Of a DNA stretch of 64,000 bases, positions 776-8,241 are shown one piece after another (within the stretch, counting starts at the first letter, position 1; each line of letters starts with the position of its first letter). Both the position numbers and the translations under genes were made by a program. Under the pieces are notes generated by a model. That model searched no databases and was not told where the DNA came from. It saw only the letters and a list, made by a program, of their open reading frames with translations. The stretch comes from Streptomyces chattanoogensis (GTDB taxonomy: Bacteria; Actinomycetota; Actinomycetes; Streptomycetales; Streptomycetaceae): contig NZ_LGKG01000112.1 in the NCBI RefSeq assembly GCF_001294335.1, forward strand, positions 186,001 to 250,000, given 5' to 3'.

Positions 776-3700
776 ATGCGGCGTCAGGCGTTGGTGGTGG
801 GCGTCGAAGGACCTGCCGCGGACCCCGCCGACGACTCACCCCCACAGTGGCAGCAACTCACCTACGCGGCACCGTACGCGCAACGGGTGAGTAAGACACT
901 GGAGAAGGAGTACGCCTATGTCCTCCTGGAACCCGCTCACGACGCCGCGTCCACCGCCGCCGCGCTGGGCGGCGCCCTGACTCAGGCCGTCAGCAGCGAG
1001 GCCGACTTCACCGTCATTCATCTCCTCGCACACGGAGAACCGACCCGCAACGGTCACGGCATCCAGGCGGTGGGCGGGGACGGCCGCCTCACCGAGGAGC
1101 TGGCCCGTTGGGTCAACATGGCAGAGAACCAGGACACGGACGACAGCGGCGATCCAGCCGTTCTGCTGATCCTCGATCTGTGCCATTCCGGCGCCGTGGT
1201 GACCGAGCACCTGCGGTCGCTGGTCCGGCCGGAGCGTCGCCGTGTCTGGGTGCTCGCCGCCTGCCACTCGGAGCAGGACGCCTATGACGGCCGCCTGAGC
1301 GCCGCCGTCGACGAGGTGCTTCGCGGCTTCGCCTCCGGGACCCTGAAGCTTGACACATCGGTGCCGTACATCCCGATCGCCCGGTTCTGCCGCGAGGTGG
1401 CTCTCCACGTGGAGTCGCGGAGTACATCCCTGAATCCGCAATCCGTCGAGCAACCACTGGCCGCGCTCGGTGCAGACCTCTCGCATCTGAGGTTCTTCGC
1501 CAACCCTCGATACGAACCGGCCGACGCGCGCAGGCTCAGTGGCGTGGATTCTGCTGTATTCACCCTCCTCGACGAAGTGGCCGACGCCCGCCATTTCGTG
1601 ATCCGGGCGCATGGTGCCGACAGCGCCTTTGGCGACCTCGGCGCTCCGTCCTTCACCGGACGGAGCGACGAACTCCGTAAATTGGCAGGCTGGTTGGAAG
1701 GCCGCGGGCCCTCGTTGCGCGTGGTCACCGGCGTACCAGGGGTCGGCAAATCCGCTCTGATCGGCACCTTCGTGTGTGCTGCGCATCCGGCGCTGCATGA
1801 GACCACCGAGCAGTTGTGGCGGCCATCGGGCGGCGACATTCACGAGACCACCGACGACCTCGCGATCGTGCACGCGCGACGGCGCGGTGTCCCGGAGATC
1901 CTCACCTCGCTCGCCACCCAGTGGGAGCTCGGATCTCCCGGCGACGCAACGACGTGGACAACGGACCAACTGGTCACGGCACTGCGGGTCAAGCCCGTAC
2001 CCCCCTGTCTCGTCATGGACGCGGTGGACGAAGCCGAGCACCCGGCCGATCTGGTCAGCGCCGTGCTGCTGCCATTGGCATCCATTCGGCGATCGGACGG
2101 GGGACCGCTGTGCAGGATGCTCGTCGCGACGCGGCCGGAAGCGGCACCACGGCCGCTCATTGAGGCGGCCCGTGCGTGCGATGGGCTGATCGACCTGGAC
2201 GAGGTGTCGCCCCTGCGACTCCGCAAGGACCTGACCCAGTTCGTTCTGCGGGTACTGCGGCCGCTGCTCCCCGGCGTATCGCCGTGGTGCTCACTCGCGG
2301 CAGCCGAGAGCCTGGGCGGCGCGCTGGCCGACACCTTGTTGAGCGGGTCACGCGAGTGGGGCGAGTTCCTTGTCGCCGGGCTCTATCTGAGGCTCCTCCA
2401 GGAACAGGTGCCACCGCCGGCGACGACCGAGCAGGCCGAGCACCTGGGCAGTGACGTGCCCCGTACGCTCGACGCGGTCCTCGACCTCCATCTCCGTCTT
2501 GACCCCCGACCGGGCCTGCACGACCTACTGGCCGCGCTGGCCTGGGCGGAGGGCGCGGGGATGCCAGAGGACCTTCTTGCCCAGGTCGCGAACCCCGATC
2601 CAGCTCCGGCCGGAAAGGACCGGGCACCCACCGCTGATCTGCTTCGGGCCGCGCGTTTCTACATACGCCGCAACGTCGATCGTGAAGGCGCTCCGCTCTA
2701 CCGGCTCTTCCACCAAGGGCTGGCCGACCGGCTCCGCGAGCATCCTGTCCTGGACGCGACCACTGTCTGGGAACGCCTGCTCGCGACGGTGCGAACGGGC
2801 GGCTCCGGCCGCCGCCGGTGGGCGACCGCCGAGCCGTATCTGCTGCGGCATGCGGCGCGCCACTGCGCGCTCGCCGGCCGGCTCGACGAACTCCTCGAGG
2901 ACAGTGAATACCTGGTTCACGCGGACCCGGCCCCACTGGCCCAGGAGCTCTACCACGGTGAACACGGCCCTCACGGAGCGGTCTATCTGACGTCGTACGG
3001 AGCCCACCACGACGGTCCGCCCGGGCAGCGGCGCGACATCCTGGCTGTCGACGCGGCTCGGCACCAGAAATGGCAGCTCGCGGCAGACCTCACGCAGGAC
3101 ACCGGCCGCCACATCGTCTGGACCGCCGGCCGGTCACTGCACACCAACCTCCTGACGACACTGACCGGTCACCGCGGCAGGATCTGGGACCTGACAACCC
3201 TCGAGATGTACGGCCGCCCTCACGCCTTGACAGCTGGTCAGGACGGAACGGCTCGGCTGTGGGACCTCGACTCCGCAACGACGACGCTCGAACTCGGGGA
3301 CCACGGTGCTCCGGTCGGAGGCGTGGTGGCCGGGAAAGTCGACGGCCGCCGTGTCGCCGTGACTGGCTGCGACAGCGGCGAACTGCGGGGATGGGACCTG
3401 GCCACAGGACATCTCCTGTGGACCGCCCCGGCCCATACGGGTCCGATCTGGTCCATGGTGGGCGTGCGCTACGAGGGGGTCCCCTCAGTGGCCAGCGCGG
3501 GCGAGGACCGGATGATCCGCTACTGGGAACTCTCCACCGGAACTCCGCTCGCCACCACACACCTGTCCGCCATCAATGGCCATGTGTGGCACCTGTCCCG
3601 CGTCTCCGTCGACGGCAGGGGCGACTGCGTCGTGGCCTGTTGCGACAACTGGGTCAAGGTCCTGACCGTCCATGGCGAGGAGGTCGAGCTGCCGCACACC

Positions 3701-5128
3701 AACTGGGAGCGGCTGTCGTGCTACCGCTATCTCGATCTGAGACACGGTCCCGAGCCGGTCGCGGGCGATCGGGACGGAATCGTGTGGGTCGGCGACGAGT
3801 TCCTCGAGCTCCTCAACGAGGATCGTCCTCATGCCGACGCCGTCTCCGATCTCGCCGCCGTGTTGCTGGACGGATCCATGTACCTCCTAAGTGCAGGGGA
3901 GGACGGTGTCGCACAGCTGAATCCGCTGGACGGCAATGGCACCGCACGGCAGGTCGTCAGCCACACCACCGCGATCACCCGTGTCGCGATCGTGTCCGAA
4001 CCGCACCGGACTCGAATTCTCACTGCGAGCAACGGCGGCACCGTCCGCGTCTCGGACGCGGCCGGGGGCGAAGTGCCGCAACGCCACCCCGGGCACACCC
4101 ACGCCATCAATGATCTGACGGTGCTTCCCGACGGCCGACTGGTCTCATGCAGCGAGGACGGAACCATGGCGCTGTGGACCGCGGACGGTGCGGTCGAGCG
4201 GCGGATCACCCTGCTGCACCACGCAGACTTCCCGCTGCCGGACCGAGCCACCGGCATCGCAATCCTGGAAGCCGGCGAACATCCACGGATTGTCGCCTCG
4301 TGCGCACACAATGGGGTCGCCCTGTGGGGCACGAACACGACTGAGAAGCACCTGGAACGACGCGACCTGGGTGAAGGCCCAGGTGCCGCTGCGATCGTCA
4401 CCATCACCATCGGTGGGGCCCAGCACGTCGTCTATGCCTCCAACAGAGGTGAGGTCGCGATAGCCACCGCCGACCACCTGGACCGGATGTCCCACTGGCC
4501 CGACGTCGACGTGACGGACCCGGCGTGGAGAGGAGAACCGGAGCGTGTCCTGCTCTCGCCGTCCGAGGCCAGGACCATCGAAGAACTGGGAAGGAAAGTC
4601 CCTGTTCCCGTGCCCGCGACATGCCTGGCAGCCTCCGGTGGCCATGTCCTGGCCGGATACCGCTCCGGCCACGTCCGGTCCGCACGCCTGCTGGGCCCGC
4701 CCCTGCCGCAGCTCGTTACCGAGCACCCTGCCGCCGTCCATTCCGTTGCCGCCGTCGACCTCGACGGGCAGCCGTACGTCGTCAGCGGTGACGACCGGGG
4801 AGAGGTTCGCGTGACGGCACTCGACGCCACCCGGACGTTCACACTGGCCGGTCACACTCGTGCCGTCTTCGCTACGGTCCCGGTCCTGCTCGACGGACAC
4901 CCGCACCTCTATACCGGCGGACTCGACCGGTCCCTGCGGCTGTGGGACCTGAGAGGCGGCAGAGAGGCCGACATCTTCTGGTTCCCGGACACCGTGTGCG
5001 CCATCGCCGTCGCCCCCGACGGCGCCCTGTACATCGGGGTAGGCCCGGACATCATCCACATGACACCGCACGACCAGCTCCAGGTACGCCCGATTCCGAC
5101 TCCCGACCAAGGAACAAGCATCCGATGA
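776..5128 (+). CDS. Caspase-like / STAND NTPase / WD40 repeat protein
   Basis: This protein has 1450 aa. The ATG at 776 is chosen because GGGGGA lies about 7 nt upstream and the caspase fold begins immediately; an in-frame ATG at 731 has no such site. Residues 1-240 resemble a peptidase C14 (caspase) domain, with His86 in HLLAHGEP and Cys136 in LILDLCHSG as the catalytic dyad. Residues about 295-480 are a STAND/NACHT-type P-loop NTPase, with Walker A GVPGVGKS (319-326), Walker B CLVMDAVDEA (411-420) and ATRPE near 451. A helical linker follows. From about residue 795 to the end lie many WD40 blades (for example GHRGRIWDL with DGTARLWDL, and GHTHAIND with DGTMALWT), enough for about two propellers. 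By family knowledge the propellers sense a partner, the NTPase oligomerises, and the protease is the effector. The substrate is unknown. Confidence 0.85.
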   Translation: MRRQALVVGVEGPAADPADDSPPQWQQLTYAAPYAQRVSKTLEKEYAYVLLEPAHDAASTAAALGGALTQAVSSEADFTVIHLLAHGEPTRNGHGIQAVGGDGRLTEELARWVNMAENQDTDDSGDPAVLLILDLCHSGAVVTEHLRSLVRPERRRVWVLAACHSEQDAYDGRLSAAVDEVLRGFASGTLKLDTSVPYIPIARFCREVALHVESRSTSLNPQSVEQPLAALGADLSHLRFFANPRYEPADARRLSGVDSAVFTLLDEVADARHFVIRAHGADSAFGDLGAPSFTGRSDELRKLAGWLEGRGPSLRVVTGVPGVGKSALIGTFVCAAHPALHETTEQLWRPSGGDIHETTDDLAIVHARRRGVPEILTSLATQWELGSPGDATTWTTDQLVTALRVKPVPPCLVMDAVDEAEHPADLVSAVLLPLASIRRSDGGPLCRMLVATRPEAAPRPLIEAARACDGLIDLDEVSPLRLRKDLTQFVLRVLRPLLPGVSPWCSLAAAESLGGALADTLLSGSREWGEFLVAGLYLRLLQEQVPPPATTEQAEHLGSDVPRTLDAVLDLHLRLDPRPGLHDLLAALAWAEGAGMPEDLLAQVANPDPAPAGKDRAPTADLLRAARFYIRRNVDREGAPLYRLFHQGLADRLREHPVLDATTVWERLLATVRTGGSGRRRWATAEPYLLRHAARHCALAGRLDELLEDSEYLVHADPAPLAQELYHGEHGPHGAVYLTSYGAHHDGPPGQRRDILAVDAARHQKWQLAADLTQDTGRHIVWTAGRSLHTNLLTTLTGHRGRIWDLTTLEMYGRPHALTAGQDGTARLWDLDSATTTLELGDHGAPVGGVVAGKVDGRRVAVTGCDSGELRGWDLATGHLLWTAPAHTGPIWSMVGVRYEGVPSVASAGEDRMIRYWELSTGTPLATTHLSAINGHVWHLSRVSVDGRGDCVVACCDNWVKVLTVHGEEVELPHTNWERLSCYRYLDLRHGPEPVAGDRDGIVWVGDEFLELLNEDRPHADAVSDLAAVLLDGSMYLLSAGEDGVAQLNPLDGNGTARQVVSHTTAITRVAIVSEPHRTRILTASNGGTVRVSDAAGGEVPQRHPGHTHAINDLTVLPDGRLVSCSEDGTMALWTADGAVERRITLLHHADFPLPDRATGIAILEAGEHPRIVASCAHNGVALWGTNTTEKHLERRDLGEGPGAAAIVTITIGGAQHVVYASNRGEVAIATADHLDRMSHWPDVDVTDPAWRGEPERVLLSPSEARTIEELGRKVPVPVPATCLAASGGHVLAGYRSGHVRSARLLGPPLPQLVTEHPAAVHSVAAVDLDGQPYVVSGDDRGEVRVTALDATRTFTLAGHTRAVFATVPVLLDGHPHLYTGGLDRSLRLWDLRGGREADIFWFPDTVCAIAVAPDGALYIGVGPDIIHMTPHDQLQVRPIPTPDQGTSIR

Positions 5129-6027
5129 CCGCCTTCGTGGCCGTACACGGCGTGGGCCACTACCGGTCCGCACTCTCACCAGCCGATATCGTCACCGCCC
5201 GCTCGGCCGTCTGGGCCAAGGACCTCGCCGTCGGGCTGGGCATGGCCGCCAAGCACGTGCCTGTCACGTACGCCTACTACGCCCACCATCTCCACCACGG
5301 CAGGCCCGTCGCACAAGGTTCCGAGGACCTCGGCCAGCTGGAGCGCGAGCATCCCCACGTGGCCGAGAACATCACTCACTGGGCGGAATCGCTGGACGCG
5401 TCACTGGGCCTGAGACTTCCGCCACCAGCAACGGCTCAGGGACGCCTGGCCGTTCCGCTCCGGCAACTCGTCTCCGCGATCTCCGAGCGTCTGAGCCTCG
5501 ACGGCCGCCTGACCCGCGCGTTCATCGCCACGTTCTTCCGCGACGTCGCGCGCTATCTCGGCGGGCCGGACGACGCTGCCCGCGCTGCGGCGCGAGAGGA
5601 GGTCGCAGGCGTCATCTCCTCGACGGGCGCTCGCGTGGTCATAGCCCACTCCCTCGGAAGCGTCGTGGCCTACGAGGCCCTCCACGCCCACCCGGAACTC
5701 GAAGTCGACCTGCTCCTGACACTCGGCTCCCCCCTCGCACTCCGCCACGGAGTTTTCGACCGCCTGTCACCAGCTCCGCTTGCCGGCACCGGCGAACGGC
5801 CTGCAGGGGTCCACCGGTGGGTCAACCTGTCCGATCACGGGGACATCGTCGCCGTCCCTCGCCCCCTCAAGCGGCGCTTCCCGGCGGTCGATCTCGATCT
5901 CACGGACAGCATCGCCCCCTTCGACTTCCACCGAGTGGCCCCCTATCTGAGGTCCTCTGTCGTGGCCGCGACGTTGGCGCCATACCTCACCAAAGACACC
6001 GATGTACGCGGATCCGACGCCAACTGA
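5125..6027 (+). CDS. Alpha/beta hydrolase coupled to the caspase-STAND gene
   Basis: This protein has 300 aa. Its ATG overlaps the TGA of the preceding gene (ATGA), so the two are almost certainly translationally coupled. The N-terminus AVHGVG is the first strand and oxyanion region of an alpha/beta hydrolase. The nucleophile elbow is AHSLGS with Ser176. LSDHGD (Asp237 or Asp240) and FDFH (His269) are plausible acid and base of the triad. There is no signal peptide or membrane segment, so it should be cytoplasmic. It may be a lipase/esterase or serine peptidase effector, or a substrate activated by the caspase partner; the sequence does not decide. I recall similar hydrolases next to bacterial caspase/STAND conflict genes, but the substrate is not known. 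Confidence 0.75.
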   Translation: MTAFVAVHGVGHYRSALSPADIVTARSAVWAKDLAVGLGMAAKHVPVTYAYYAHHLHHGRPVAQGSEDLGQLEREHPHVAENITHWAESLDASLGLRLPPPATAQGRLAVPLRQLVSAISERLSLDGRLTRAFIATFFRDVARYLGGPDDAARAAAREEVAGVISSTGARVVIAHSLGSVVAYEALHAHPELEVDLLLTLGSPLALRHGVFDRLSPAPLAGTGERPAGVHRWVNLSDHGDIVAVPRPLKRRFPAVDLDLTDSIAPFDFHRVAPYLRSSVVAATLAPYLTKDTDVRGSDAN

Positions 6028-6221
6028 TCCAAGAGTGGGCGACCACGCCCCTGCCGGGCACGCCTCCGGACCGCGCCGCCATGATCCTTCCGAAGCCAGC
6101 GAACCTCATTGGGGGTTCACCGCGAATACCGAGCATGCCCGTTCCTTGTCTGCGTATGAGGCGAACCCCTCCGCCGACGGTAACGGCTGCGTTCGGTAAA
6201 CCGGCCCACGGGCTCCGTATC

Positions 6222-6254
6222 GATGCCCCGCGTGGAACCACCACACGGGGCATC
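6222..6254 (-). terminator. Hairpin downstream of msrB
   Basis: Arms GATGCCCCGCGTGG and CCACACGGGGCATC pair over 14 bp with one wobble and a 5-nt loop. The hairpin sits 38 nt beyond the msrB stop and is probably the terminator of the murC-msrB operon. It may also stop transcription from the hydrolase gene. The rest of 6028-6291 shows no gene. Confidence 0.5.
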
Positions 6255-6291
6255 ACTTCTAGTCACAGGCGCTACAAAAAGCGGCTTCCGG

Positions 6292-6699
6292 TCACTCCTC
6301 GTCCGCCACCAGCCGCAACGAGATCGAGTTGATGCAGTACCGCTGGTCCGTAGGCGTCGGGTACCCCTCCCCCTCGAAGACGTGGCCGAGGTGCGAGCCG
6401 CACTTCGCGCAGCGGACCTCCGTCCGCTCCATCCCGTGTGAATTGTCGGACAGAAGTTCGACCGCGTCCGAGTTGCGTGCATCCCAGAAGCTCGGCCAGC
6501 CGCAGTGGCTCTCGAATTTGGTGTCGGAGCGGAAGAGTTCGGCGCCGCAGGCGCGGCAGGAGTAGACGCCCGCGGTCTTGGTGTCGGTGTACTCGCCCAC
6601 GAAGGCGGGCTCCGTGCCGGCCTCGCGCAGGACGTGGTACTCGGCGGGGGTCAGCTCGGCGCGCCACTGGTCGTCGGGCTTGTCGACTTCGTACGGCAT
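6292..6699 (-). CDS. msrB: Peptide-methionine (R)-S-oxide reductase
   Basis: This 135-aa protein matches the usual MsrB length. Two zinc-binding CxxC pairs are visible (CRAC and CAKC), as are the family blocks HCGWPSFW and GSHLGHVFEGEG. The catalytic Cys is in RYCINS near the C-terminus. It reduces the R-sulfoxide of methionine in oxidised proteins in the cytoplasm. AGGAGG precedes the ATG by about 6 nt. It starts 15 nt after the murC stop, so the two probably form an operon. Confidence 0.95.
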   Translation of the reverse strand: MPYEVDKPDDQWRAELTPAEYHVLREAGTEPAFVGEYTDTKTAGVYSCRACGAELFRSDTKFESHCGWPSFWDARNSDAVELLSDNSHGMERTEVRCAKCGSHLGHVFEGEGYPTPTDQRYCINSISLRLVADEE

Positions 6700-6714
6700 G
6701 GGGGCCTCCTCGGC

Positions 6715-8115
6715 TCAGCCGGCCAGGCGGGTCAGGATGGCGGGGCCGAGGTCGGTGACATCGCCCGCGCCCATGGTGAGAACAAGGTCACCGGGCTTGG
6801 CCATTCCGGCGATGACGTCCGGGATGGCGCCCATGTCGCTCTCGGCGGTGACATCGGCGCCGGCGGCGCGCGCGGCATCGATGATCAGGGCGCTGGTGAC
6901 GCCGGGGACCGGGTCCTCGCGGGCCGGGTAGATGTCCAGGACGACGGAGCTGTCGGCGAGGGCGAGCGCCTGGCCCATCTCCGTGCCCAGCTCCTGGGTG
7001 CGGGAGAAGAGGTGGGGCTGGAAGACGACGAGAACCCGGGAGTCCTCGCCGACGGCGCCGCGGATCGCCTCGAGGTCGGCGGTCATCTCGGTGGGGTGGT
7101 GGGCGTAGGAGTCGATCACCTGGACTCCGGCGGCCTCGCCCTTGAGCTGGAGGCGGCGCTTGACGCCGGTGTAGGTGCCCAGCGCGGAGGCGAGGTTGTG
7201 CGGCGGCAGGTCCAGGGCGACGCCGGCGGCGAGGGCGGCGACGGCGTTGTGGGCGTAGTGCCGGCCGGGGACGGAGACGGTGAAGGTGAGGATCTTGCCA
7301 CTGGTGAGGGTGACGGTGACGTCGCTGGTCAGGCCGCGGGGGTTGACCTTGAGGATGCGGACGTCGGCGTCCTTGGACTCTCCGTAGGTGATGACCTCGA
7401 TGTCGTGGCGTCCGGAGATCTTCTCGGTCAGCTCGCGGGCGCCGGGGTGGTCGGCGGCGATGACGAGGGTGCCGCCGGGGCGGATGCGGCCGACGAAGGT
7501 CTCGAAGGACTCGTAGATCTCGTCCATCGAGGCGTAGTTGGCGTGGTGGTCCAGCTCGACGTTGAGGACGATGGCGACCTCGGGGGCGTACTTGTGGAAG
7601 CTGCGGTCGCTTTCGTCCGCCTCGGCGACGAAGATCTCGCCGGAGCCGTGCTCGGCGTTGGAGCCGGGGGCGTCGAGGTCGCCGCCGATGGCGTAGGACG
7701 GCTTGAGGCCGAGCGAGGTGAGGGAGACGGCCAGCATCGAGGTGGTGGTCGTCTTGCCGTGGGTGCCCGCCACCGCGATGGGGCGCAGGCCGTCCATGAG
7801 GGCGGCGAGGGCGTCGGAGCGGTGGACGACCGGGATGCCGCGCTCCTGGGCGACGGCGAGCTCCGGGTTGTCGGCGCGGATGGCGGAGGAGACGACGACG
7901 CAGGTGGCGTCCGCGGCCAGATGCGCGGCGGCGTGGCCGATGTGGACGGTGGCGCCGAGGTCGCGCAGCGCCTGGGCGGTCGCGGAGTCCTTGGCGTCGC
8001 TGCCCGCGACCTTGGCGCCGCGCTGCGCGAGGATCTTGGCGATGCCCGACATGCCGGCTCCGCCGATACCGATGAAGTGCGGCCGGTCCATCGAGGCTGG
8101 GATGGCGGGTGCCAT
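6715..8115 (-). CDS. murC: UDP-N-acetylmuramate--L-alanine ligase
   Basis: MurC is a 466-aa cytoplasmic enzyme that adds L-Ala to UDP-MurNAc, the first step of the peptidoglycan stem peptide. The N-terminal nucleotide-binding motif GIGGAGMSGIA and the ATP-binding loop GTHGKTTT are present, as are AEADESDRSF and LNVELDHHANY of the central domain. The ATG at 8115 is preferred over a longer frame because AGGGAG lies 7 nt upstream and the family N-terminus begins there. Unlike in many bacteria it is outside the dcw cluster, which agrees with Streptomyces. It is followed by msrB. Confidence 0.95.
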   Translation of the reverse strand: MAPAIPASMDRPHFIGIGGAGMSGIAKILAQRGAKVAGSDAKDSATAQALRDLGATVHIGHAAAHLAADATCVVVSSAIRADNPELAVAQERGIPVVHRSDALAALMDGLRPIAVAGTHGKTTTTSMLAVSLTSLGLKPSYAIGGDLDAPGSNAEHGSGEIFVAEADESDRSFHKYAPEVAIVLNVELDHHANYASMDEIYESFETFVGRIRPGGTLVIAADHPGARELTEKISGRHDIEVITYGESKDADVRILKVNPRGLTSDVTVTLTSGKILTFTVSVPGRHYAHNAVAALAAGVALDLPPHNLASALGTYTGVKRRLQLKGEAAGVQVIDSYAHHPTEMTADLEAIRGAVGEDSRVLVVFQPHLFSRTQELGTEMGQALALADSSVVLDIYPAREDPVPGVTSALIIDAARAAGADVTAESDMGAIPDVIAGMAKPGDLVLTMGAGDVTDLGPAILTRLAG

Positions 8116-8241
8116 GGTGCGTCTCCCTGATCGTCGATCATCGCGAGCGGTGGTGCTGTCGTGCGGTGGTGCTGCCGATGATTCTCGCACCCGGCACCGA
8201 CAGCGACGGTCGCCGCGGTCGCACGGGGGCGGATCCGGAGC

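Follow-up and report, generated by a model that had tools for sequence, protein, structure and literature searches.

In Streptomyces chattanoogensis, a gene for a 1450-residue protein that combines a caspase, a STAND NTPase and WD40 repeats (gene A) ends in a stop codon that overlaps the start codon of a gene for a 300-residue alpha/beta hydrolase (gene B). The two genes lie at 776..6027 of the 64,000-nucleotide stretch analysed here (the window; contig 112 of a 9.1 Mb genome), and their closest protein relatives are from Streptomyces. Whether they form a working unit, and what a protease and a hydrolase would do together, is the question that this locus raises. We found that the pair is a genuine, conserved and mobile two-gene unit in which both active sites are intact. 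That the two genes travel together across many related bacteria suggests a shared machine of cell death or defence.

The original prediction, made from the sequence of this stretch, had described a caspase with a His/Cys dyad, an intact P-loop, WD40 repeats and a serine hydrolase. Its coordinates, protein lengths and overlapping ATG and stop proved exact, and invariant residues, Pfam and fold matches bore out each domain. Across 37 aligned sequences (window included), the caspase residues H86 and C136, the P-loop residues G319, G322, G324, K325 and S326 and the Walker B residues D415, D418 and E419 were invariant; D134, two residues ahead of C136, was also invariant in gene A. The protein has both the fold and the catalytic His and Cys of a C14-like caspase peptidase. 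Its P-loop, its Walker B D..DE motif and its C-terminal repeats, together with a winged helix predicted from model matches, assign it to the STAND NTPases, and the caspase, STAND and WD40 parts occur in one chain and in the order typical of bacterial caspase-STAND-WD40 proteins. Structural matches to a model of 740 residues were mostly caspases, in a list where the absence of other families is uninformative. The modelled folds were those of a caspase and an Apaf-1-like protein, with ORC/Cdc6-type AAA+ proteins and a plant NLR on the same Foldseek list; the caspase-NTPase profile had no match among PDB sequences at 0.001. Pfam WD40 was detected in gene A (E 3.2e-24) and WD40 in 27 of 31 C-termini scanned (window included). 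Self-similarity of this region was strongest at a lag of 44 residues, and by our estimate the approximately 660 residues past residue 790 would probably leave room for about two propellers.

Gene B shows the lipase-like alpha/beta-hydrolase fold, a nucleophile elbow and a Ser-Asp-His triad, and S176, D237, D240 and H269 were invariant in 35 aligned sequences (window included). Structure comparison matched it to lipases, from which lipase activity is predicted on the basis of fold; its profile gave one weak lipase match among PDB sequences (E 0.025), and gene B had no match in the phage record collection. The ATGA overlap makes translational coupling of the two genes likely. Both genes are under purifying selection and are therefore not chance reading frames: the ratio of non-synonymous to synonymous substitution rates (dN/dS) for genes A and B was 0.24 and 0.37 against locus L037, 0.33 and 0.24 against L035, and 0.31 and 0.20 against L036.

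Absence of the pair from other genomes had been named in the original prediction as the outcome that would speak against it. A genome-neighbourhood search clearly gave the opposite result, finding the pair across family genomes, in the 80 best hydrolase loci of a wider scan and on plasmids. Open reading frames (ORFs) were called with our own GC-based script. In a set of 297 family genomes, the hydrolase was matched in 124 at E 1e-5 and the caspase-NTPase in 74 at E 1e-15; linkage was determined from 150 listed hydrolase matches and all 91 caspase-NTPase matches. Among the matches listed, 32 of 35 caspase-STAND proteins scoring at least 150 bits had a hydrolase gene within 9 kb (on the same strand and downstream in 22 cases, upstream in 7 and convergent in 3), 9 of 10 scoring 100-150 bits were paired, and 31 of 33 hydrolases scoring at least 120 bits adjoined a caspase-STAND gene. 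In two of the three strong exceptions the locus is truncated by a contig end, and these genomes have, at the end of a different contig, a hydrolase gene next to a remnant of WD40 sequence. The third, L153, had an open caspase-STAND frame and no hydrolase in the 16 kb read.

The wider scan covered 84,980 genomes, and its best 80 loci were all actinobacterial. A caspase-NTPase match was present in 44 of the 80, with L039 and L048 counted as paired on partial matches only. On the hydrolase tree, from which L131 was left off, 28 of the 36 unpaired loci formed one clade with support of 100, and outside this solo clade 44 of 52 loci were paired. Five of the other eight unpaired loci lay at contig ends (L042, L045, L053, L059 and L092), and three were unexplained (L040, L058 and L080). 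In a class-wide sample, 12 of 345 genomes had a caspase-NTPase match at E 1e-60. Seven of these had, by eye, a hydrolase within about 5 kb (G000, G033, G133, G553, G576, G590 and G104), and five had none nearby (G437, G136, G546, G009 and G048); the six strongest matches were all paired. Linkage in the genomes, the best 80 loci and the plasmids described below rules out chance adjacency of genes A and B. A separate arrangement was seen at L155 (3963-12405), where two caspase-STAND genes stand head to head with one hydrolase only.

Members of the solo clade (for example L062, L071, L088, L095 and L114) come from genera that we take to belong to the order Streptosporangiales in 27 of 28 cases, the remaining host being an unplaced metagenome-assembled genome. 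Their neighbours included 18 RF-1 domain proteins and 18 PhoD phosphatases among 101 scanned, and no Pfam family occurred more than three times among 102 scanned neighbours of paired loci; these scans covered 101 of 110 control ORFs and 102 of 161 ORFs of paired loci. The catalytic residues were retained in paired (42) and solo (28) hydrolases alike. Two further residues, Q64 and R113, were present in 42 of 42 caspase-linked hydrolases of the main clade, as compared to the 28 solo hydrolases, of which 4 had Arg, 11 Lys, 11 His and 2 Asn at the R113 column, as read from the alignment. Three fragmentary loci (L039, L048 and L057) were excluded from this and the co-divergence comparison. We regard Q64 and R113 as a lead to a possible docking or cut site on the hydrolase, not as proof of one.

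Co-divergence pointed to the caspase as the part of gene A most closely tied to gene B. In 40 paired loci (window included), with the poorly aligning propeller left out and species relatedness not removed, the distance-matrix correlation with the hydrolase was 0.71 for the caspase, 0.62 for the NTPase and 0.60 for the winged helix; the respective partial correlations were 0.46, 0.20 and 0.16, and the caspase value was reached by 0 of 999 permutations. Where gene B lies downstream, no part of gene A is more distant from it than the caspase, so that physical linkage by itself does not account for this relationship. The dN/dS values by domain were 0.49 and 0.34 (propeller halves), 0.34 (caspase), 0.26 (NTPase) and 0.24 (hydrolase) against L035, and 0.42 and 0.39, 0.26, 0.22 and 0.20, in the same order, against L036, so that the first propeller half ranked highest in two of three comparisons. 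With L037, which is closer, the values were 0.26 for each propeller half, 0.24 for the caspase, 0.21 for the NTPase and 0.37 for the hydrolase. Positive selection was not seen in the window pair; dN/dS was far below 1 in every domain.

The pair is also mobile. Among 34 matching plasmid records, of which 20 were listed, all seven copies that were read hold the hydrolase and caspase-NTPase genes side by side; their hosts are Streptomyces, Embleya and Arthrobacter, the Arthrobacter copy (L214) being in several broken frames. On two plasmids, the pair is flanked by an annotated Tn3 transposase and a tyrosine recombinase. In the window, GC content at third codon positions (GC3) is 0.80 in gene A and 0.81 in gene B versus 0.92-0.94 in msrB, murC and two further flanking genes, and because it lies below that of the flanks, the pair looks to have been acquired as one unit. 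Neighbours of paired loci matched 58 PADLOC models (102 ORFs) versus 3 models for the control set (101 ORFs); among the 25 models listed were Septu PtuA/PtuB, a type IV restriction enzyme and MzaB, each model being matched by at most two neighbour proteins. This accessory, mobile setting fits that of defence loci.

In some relatives, the WD40 region carries signs of recent change. Tandem repeats with a unit of roughly one blade (120-135 bases), in 2 to about 16 copies, were found in 12 of 37 C-termini, a set without L068 and without loci whose frame stops after the NTPase. Such arrays occur in two plasmid copies from different Streptomyces whose genes, of 5082 and 4821 bases, differ in length by about two blades. 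In six arrays, the framework was almost fixed and changes clustered at comparable places in the blade, near positions 15-19 and 36-39. Non-synonymous to synonymous pairs in these arrays were 270:52, 786:473, 404:215, 753:424, 371:259 and 178:50 over all positions, and 184:12, 453:7, 247:10, 449:20, 188:16 and 87:1 at the eight most variable positions, which were chosen by amino-acid variability, a choice that inflates non-synonymous counts there by construction. The array counts omit blades of other length or less than 60% like the consensus, and L209 and L210 are related copies. Strong internal conservation with exchanged repeats has been described for fungal HET-E/HET-D WD40 receptors (PMC12881547), and recent blade amplification for bacterial propellers, including a cyanobacterial STAND example (PMC9218822), in the parts of these papers available to us.

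We favour, with about even confidence, a reading in which the two genes form an NLR-like module for suicide or defence and the caspase controls an effector with a lipase fold; the conjectural parts of this reading are defence, cleavage and lipid attack. Gene A would then be a one-protein counterpart of Apaf-1 plus caspase-9, with the WD40 part as sensor, the STAND NTPase as ATP-driven switch and the caspase as output. Binding of a trigger by the propellers would release the NTPase, the released protein would oligomerize, and the crowded caspase domains would become active. Because of its D-x-C motif, the caspase is expected to cut after Arg or Lys. It would act on or with the gene B hydrolase, most simply by cutting or docking at the cap (residues 60-115), which includes Q64 and R113. 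The esterase or lipase activity of the freed hydrolase might then attack membrane lipids, so that the infected compartment dies or arrests. Coupling between caspase and hydrolase is supported by their co-divergence, kinship not removed, and by a precedent in VMAP systems (PMC7159879, in its available part). A more specific version, a lipase-based counterpart of pyroptosis in which a one-chain apoptosome, its WD40 sensors newly amplified in some relatives, activates a dedicated hydrolase when the caspase cuts its cap, with R113 as candidate site, and the cell degrades its own membrane lipids to stop invaders, is tentative and in our view rather unlikely.

Several observations weigh against the favoured reading. 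The nearest PDB folds leave the substrate of gene B unfixed, and loop 101-110 of its model is of low confidence (mean predicted local distance difference test score, pLDDT, 63). The Q64/R113 signature amounts to one change on the tree, at the solo clade, where 11 of 28 sequences have Lys in place of Arg; a distant clade with the hydrolase upstream of the caspase-STAND gene lacks the signature, so that R113 cannot serve as a mark of all caspase-linked hydrolases. Among the matches listed, caspase-STAND proteins below 100 bits were paired in just 24 of 46 cases, and gene A stops after the NTPase in two loci (L094 and L103). The hydrolase alone is tolerated, as 28 solo copies in a conserved setting attest, so that it either stays inert before activation or serves some other function. 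The co-divergence correlations contain species relatedness and do not extend to the propeller. Sensor diversification is not clear for the window copy: a test for a blade array found none in it, the hydrolase had the highest dN/dS against L037 (0.37, propellers 0.26), and against L035 the caspase (0.343) equalled the second propeller half (0.342).

The same data can be read in other ways. The STAND sensor might assemble both enzymes as parallel effectors, the caspase shredding proteins and the hydrolase hitting lipids or esters, with no cleavage of one by the other. The linkage data fit this equally, and the variation in gene order and strand means that the enzymes need not act in a fixed cascade; the hydrolase nevertheless diverges with the caspase rather than with the NTPase, a better fit to a direct relation between the two enzymes, and we consider parallel action rather unlikely. 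Another account would make the hydrolase a brake, an immunity partner that restrains the caspase or its product and whose loss brings death. Near-obligate linkage and overlapping frames also suit toxin-antitoxin logic, and the hydrolase is maintained alone in the 28 solo loci. Against this, the open frame of L153 argues that a hydrolase is not strictly needed to keep the caspase-STAND protein safe, and strict retention of the hydrolase's catalytic residues would be unusual for a pure binding inhibitor, which together make a brake improbable.

The module could instead serve programmed death in mycelial development or stress rather than defence against invaders. Its hosts are mostly mycelial actinobacteria, and homologs of apoptotic proteins are reported to be numerous in developmentally complex prokaryotes (PMC3501461, available part). 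Conflict is the better fit to its patchy distribution (74 of 297 genomes), its carriage on plasmids and with transposons, its codon usage unlike that of the flanks and the blade arrays of some relatives, and we think a developmental role improbable.

How the favoured module relates to known systems was assessed from domain content and neighbourhood. Kaur et al. (2020, PMC7159879), in the part available to us, describe the caspase of VMAP systems as always accompanied by a neighbouring alpha/beta-hydrolase gene and report related hydrolases in GAP1 systems; the original prediction did not mention this published precedent. The vWA-MoxR-VMAP ternary systems likewise have a caspase-superfamily domain with an adjacent alpha/beta-hydrolase gene, for which those authors infer joint action. 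There, however, the caspase is on the VMAP protein beside MoxR and vWA, whereas here it is on a STAND-WD40 protein. No VMAP or MoxR gene was found in the six neighbouring stretches scanned, where the vWA protein was TerF-like, and we do not place the pair in that system. Two VMAP-C matches occur in this genome, one listed being on another contig. Of 20 VMAP loci of our own choosing, none contained this caspase or NTPase and one gave a weak hydrolase match. At L149 (4638-13826), in one genome, a caspase-STAND gene and a VMAP-C gene are about 4 kb apart, which might form a link to VMAP systems. EACC1-caspase systems likewise consist of two genes and have a caspase with a variable C-terminus (PMC7159879, available part). 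Gene A matched the EACC1-caspase model NF047832 (NCBIfam) weakly, at 20.6 bits against a cut-off of 140, and no EACC1 membrane gene was found among the neighbours scanned, the partner here being a hydrolase, so the pair was not assigned to these systems. PADLOC recognized no known defence system; its single match to gene A was a HEAT/ARM model covering the WD40 part.

Bacterial metacaspase-NACHT-WD40 chains, called widely distributed by Asplund-Samuelsson et al. (2012, PMC3501461), have the same domain order in one chain, and a hydrolase partner goes unmentioned in the available part of that paper. In the APAF-1, CED-4 and Dark apoptosomes, which work with caspase-9 or CED-3, the parts are distributed differently; here sensor, switch and protease share one chain, with a coupled lipase-fold enzyme in addition. 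Fungal NLR/WD40 protease sensors cluster with gasdermins (PMC12881547, a review seen in part), a resemblance in that the gene of a protease-bearing sensor stands beside that of a death effector, and the HET-E/HET-D receptors are similar in the strong internal conservation of their WD40 repeats. The present effector, however, is a hydrolase and not a pore, in bacteria, and homology of effectors is not implied. No description of a stand-alone caspase-STAND/hydrolase unit was found in the literature searched, which was mostly open-access and without supplementary files; the neighbourhood lists that supplement PMC7159879 may contain the pair already.

Table 1. Features of the caspase-STAND/hydrolase locus (window positions unless a locus is named)
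Feature	Position	Strand	Details
Gene A, caspase - STAND NTPase - WD40 protein, 1450 aa	776..5128	+	ATG at 776, stop at 5128
Caspase domain, residues 1-250	776..1525	+	H86 codon 1031-1033, C136 codon 1181-1183
STAND NTPase and winged-helix part, about residues 290-660	1643..2755	+	estimated borders; P-loop 1730-1753
WD40 repeat region, about residues 790-1450	3143..5125	+	estimated borders; Pfam WD40; probably two beta-propellers
ATGA overlap of gene A and gene B frames	5125..5128	+	gene B start overlaps gene A stop
Gene B, alpha/beta hydrolase, 300 aa	5125..6027	+	ATG at 5125, stop at 6027
Gene B residue codons	S176 5650-5652; D240 5842-5844; H269 5929-5931; Q64 5314-5316; R113 5461-5463	+	
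msrB (methionine sulfoxide reductase B)	6292..6699	-	right border of pair; family scan
msrB 3' repeat	L034 9577-9787		about 420 to 210 bases ahead of the window's first base
Further msrB fragment	L034 8200-8257		beyond first repeat

The surroundings of the pair (Table 1) were partly as foreseen. A position at the edge of conserved core genes fits what was read: the pair adjoins the 3' end of msrB, and murC, named by reading of the sequence, adjoins the msrB side directly to the right. Of 24 loci read (this genome included), 22 had a called murC-like upstream frame of 432-496 residues adjoining msrB; on the far side of msrB, the called frames differ between genomes by eye, and none was called in three. 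The same pair lies beside msrB in L035, L037 and L039. The last 211 bases of msrB recur with 86% identity 6.5 kb leftward, and partial 3' copies within about 7 kb were seen in 4 of 25 same-genus genomes (the present one, G000, and G297, G308 and G315). The msrB 3' end (window 6292-8190; L156-L179) appears to be a hot spot for cargo in Streptomyces. A toxin module had also been proposed next door, but the leftward 184-residue frame had no Pfam match above cut-off and no PADLOC match; what stood of the original prediction was the domain make-up, the unit, its conservation and the caspase-hydrolase coupling. Directly left of the island, L034 encodes a 1260-residue NACHT NTPase (3928-7710, minus strand; Pfam NACHT E 6.5e-10), and a TerF-like vWA protein lies between the two msrB fragments (L034 8451-9299, plus strand). 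Close to the pair on a Streptomyces canus plasmid (L211, 1-4664), a gene for a CHAT-domain protein and a second gene annotated as an alpha/beta hydrolase are divergently oriented, perhaps another protease-hydrolase pairing.

The caspase-hydrolase partnership, noted so far inside the larger VMAP and GAP1 systems, is thus found here as a minimal two-gene unit. Residues C136, K325, S176, D240, H269, Q64 and R113 are precise targets for mutation, the 28 solo hydrolases form a natural control group, and the blade arrays of relatives provide natural sensor variation. Such material bears on how a bacterial apoptosome senses and kills.

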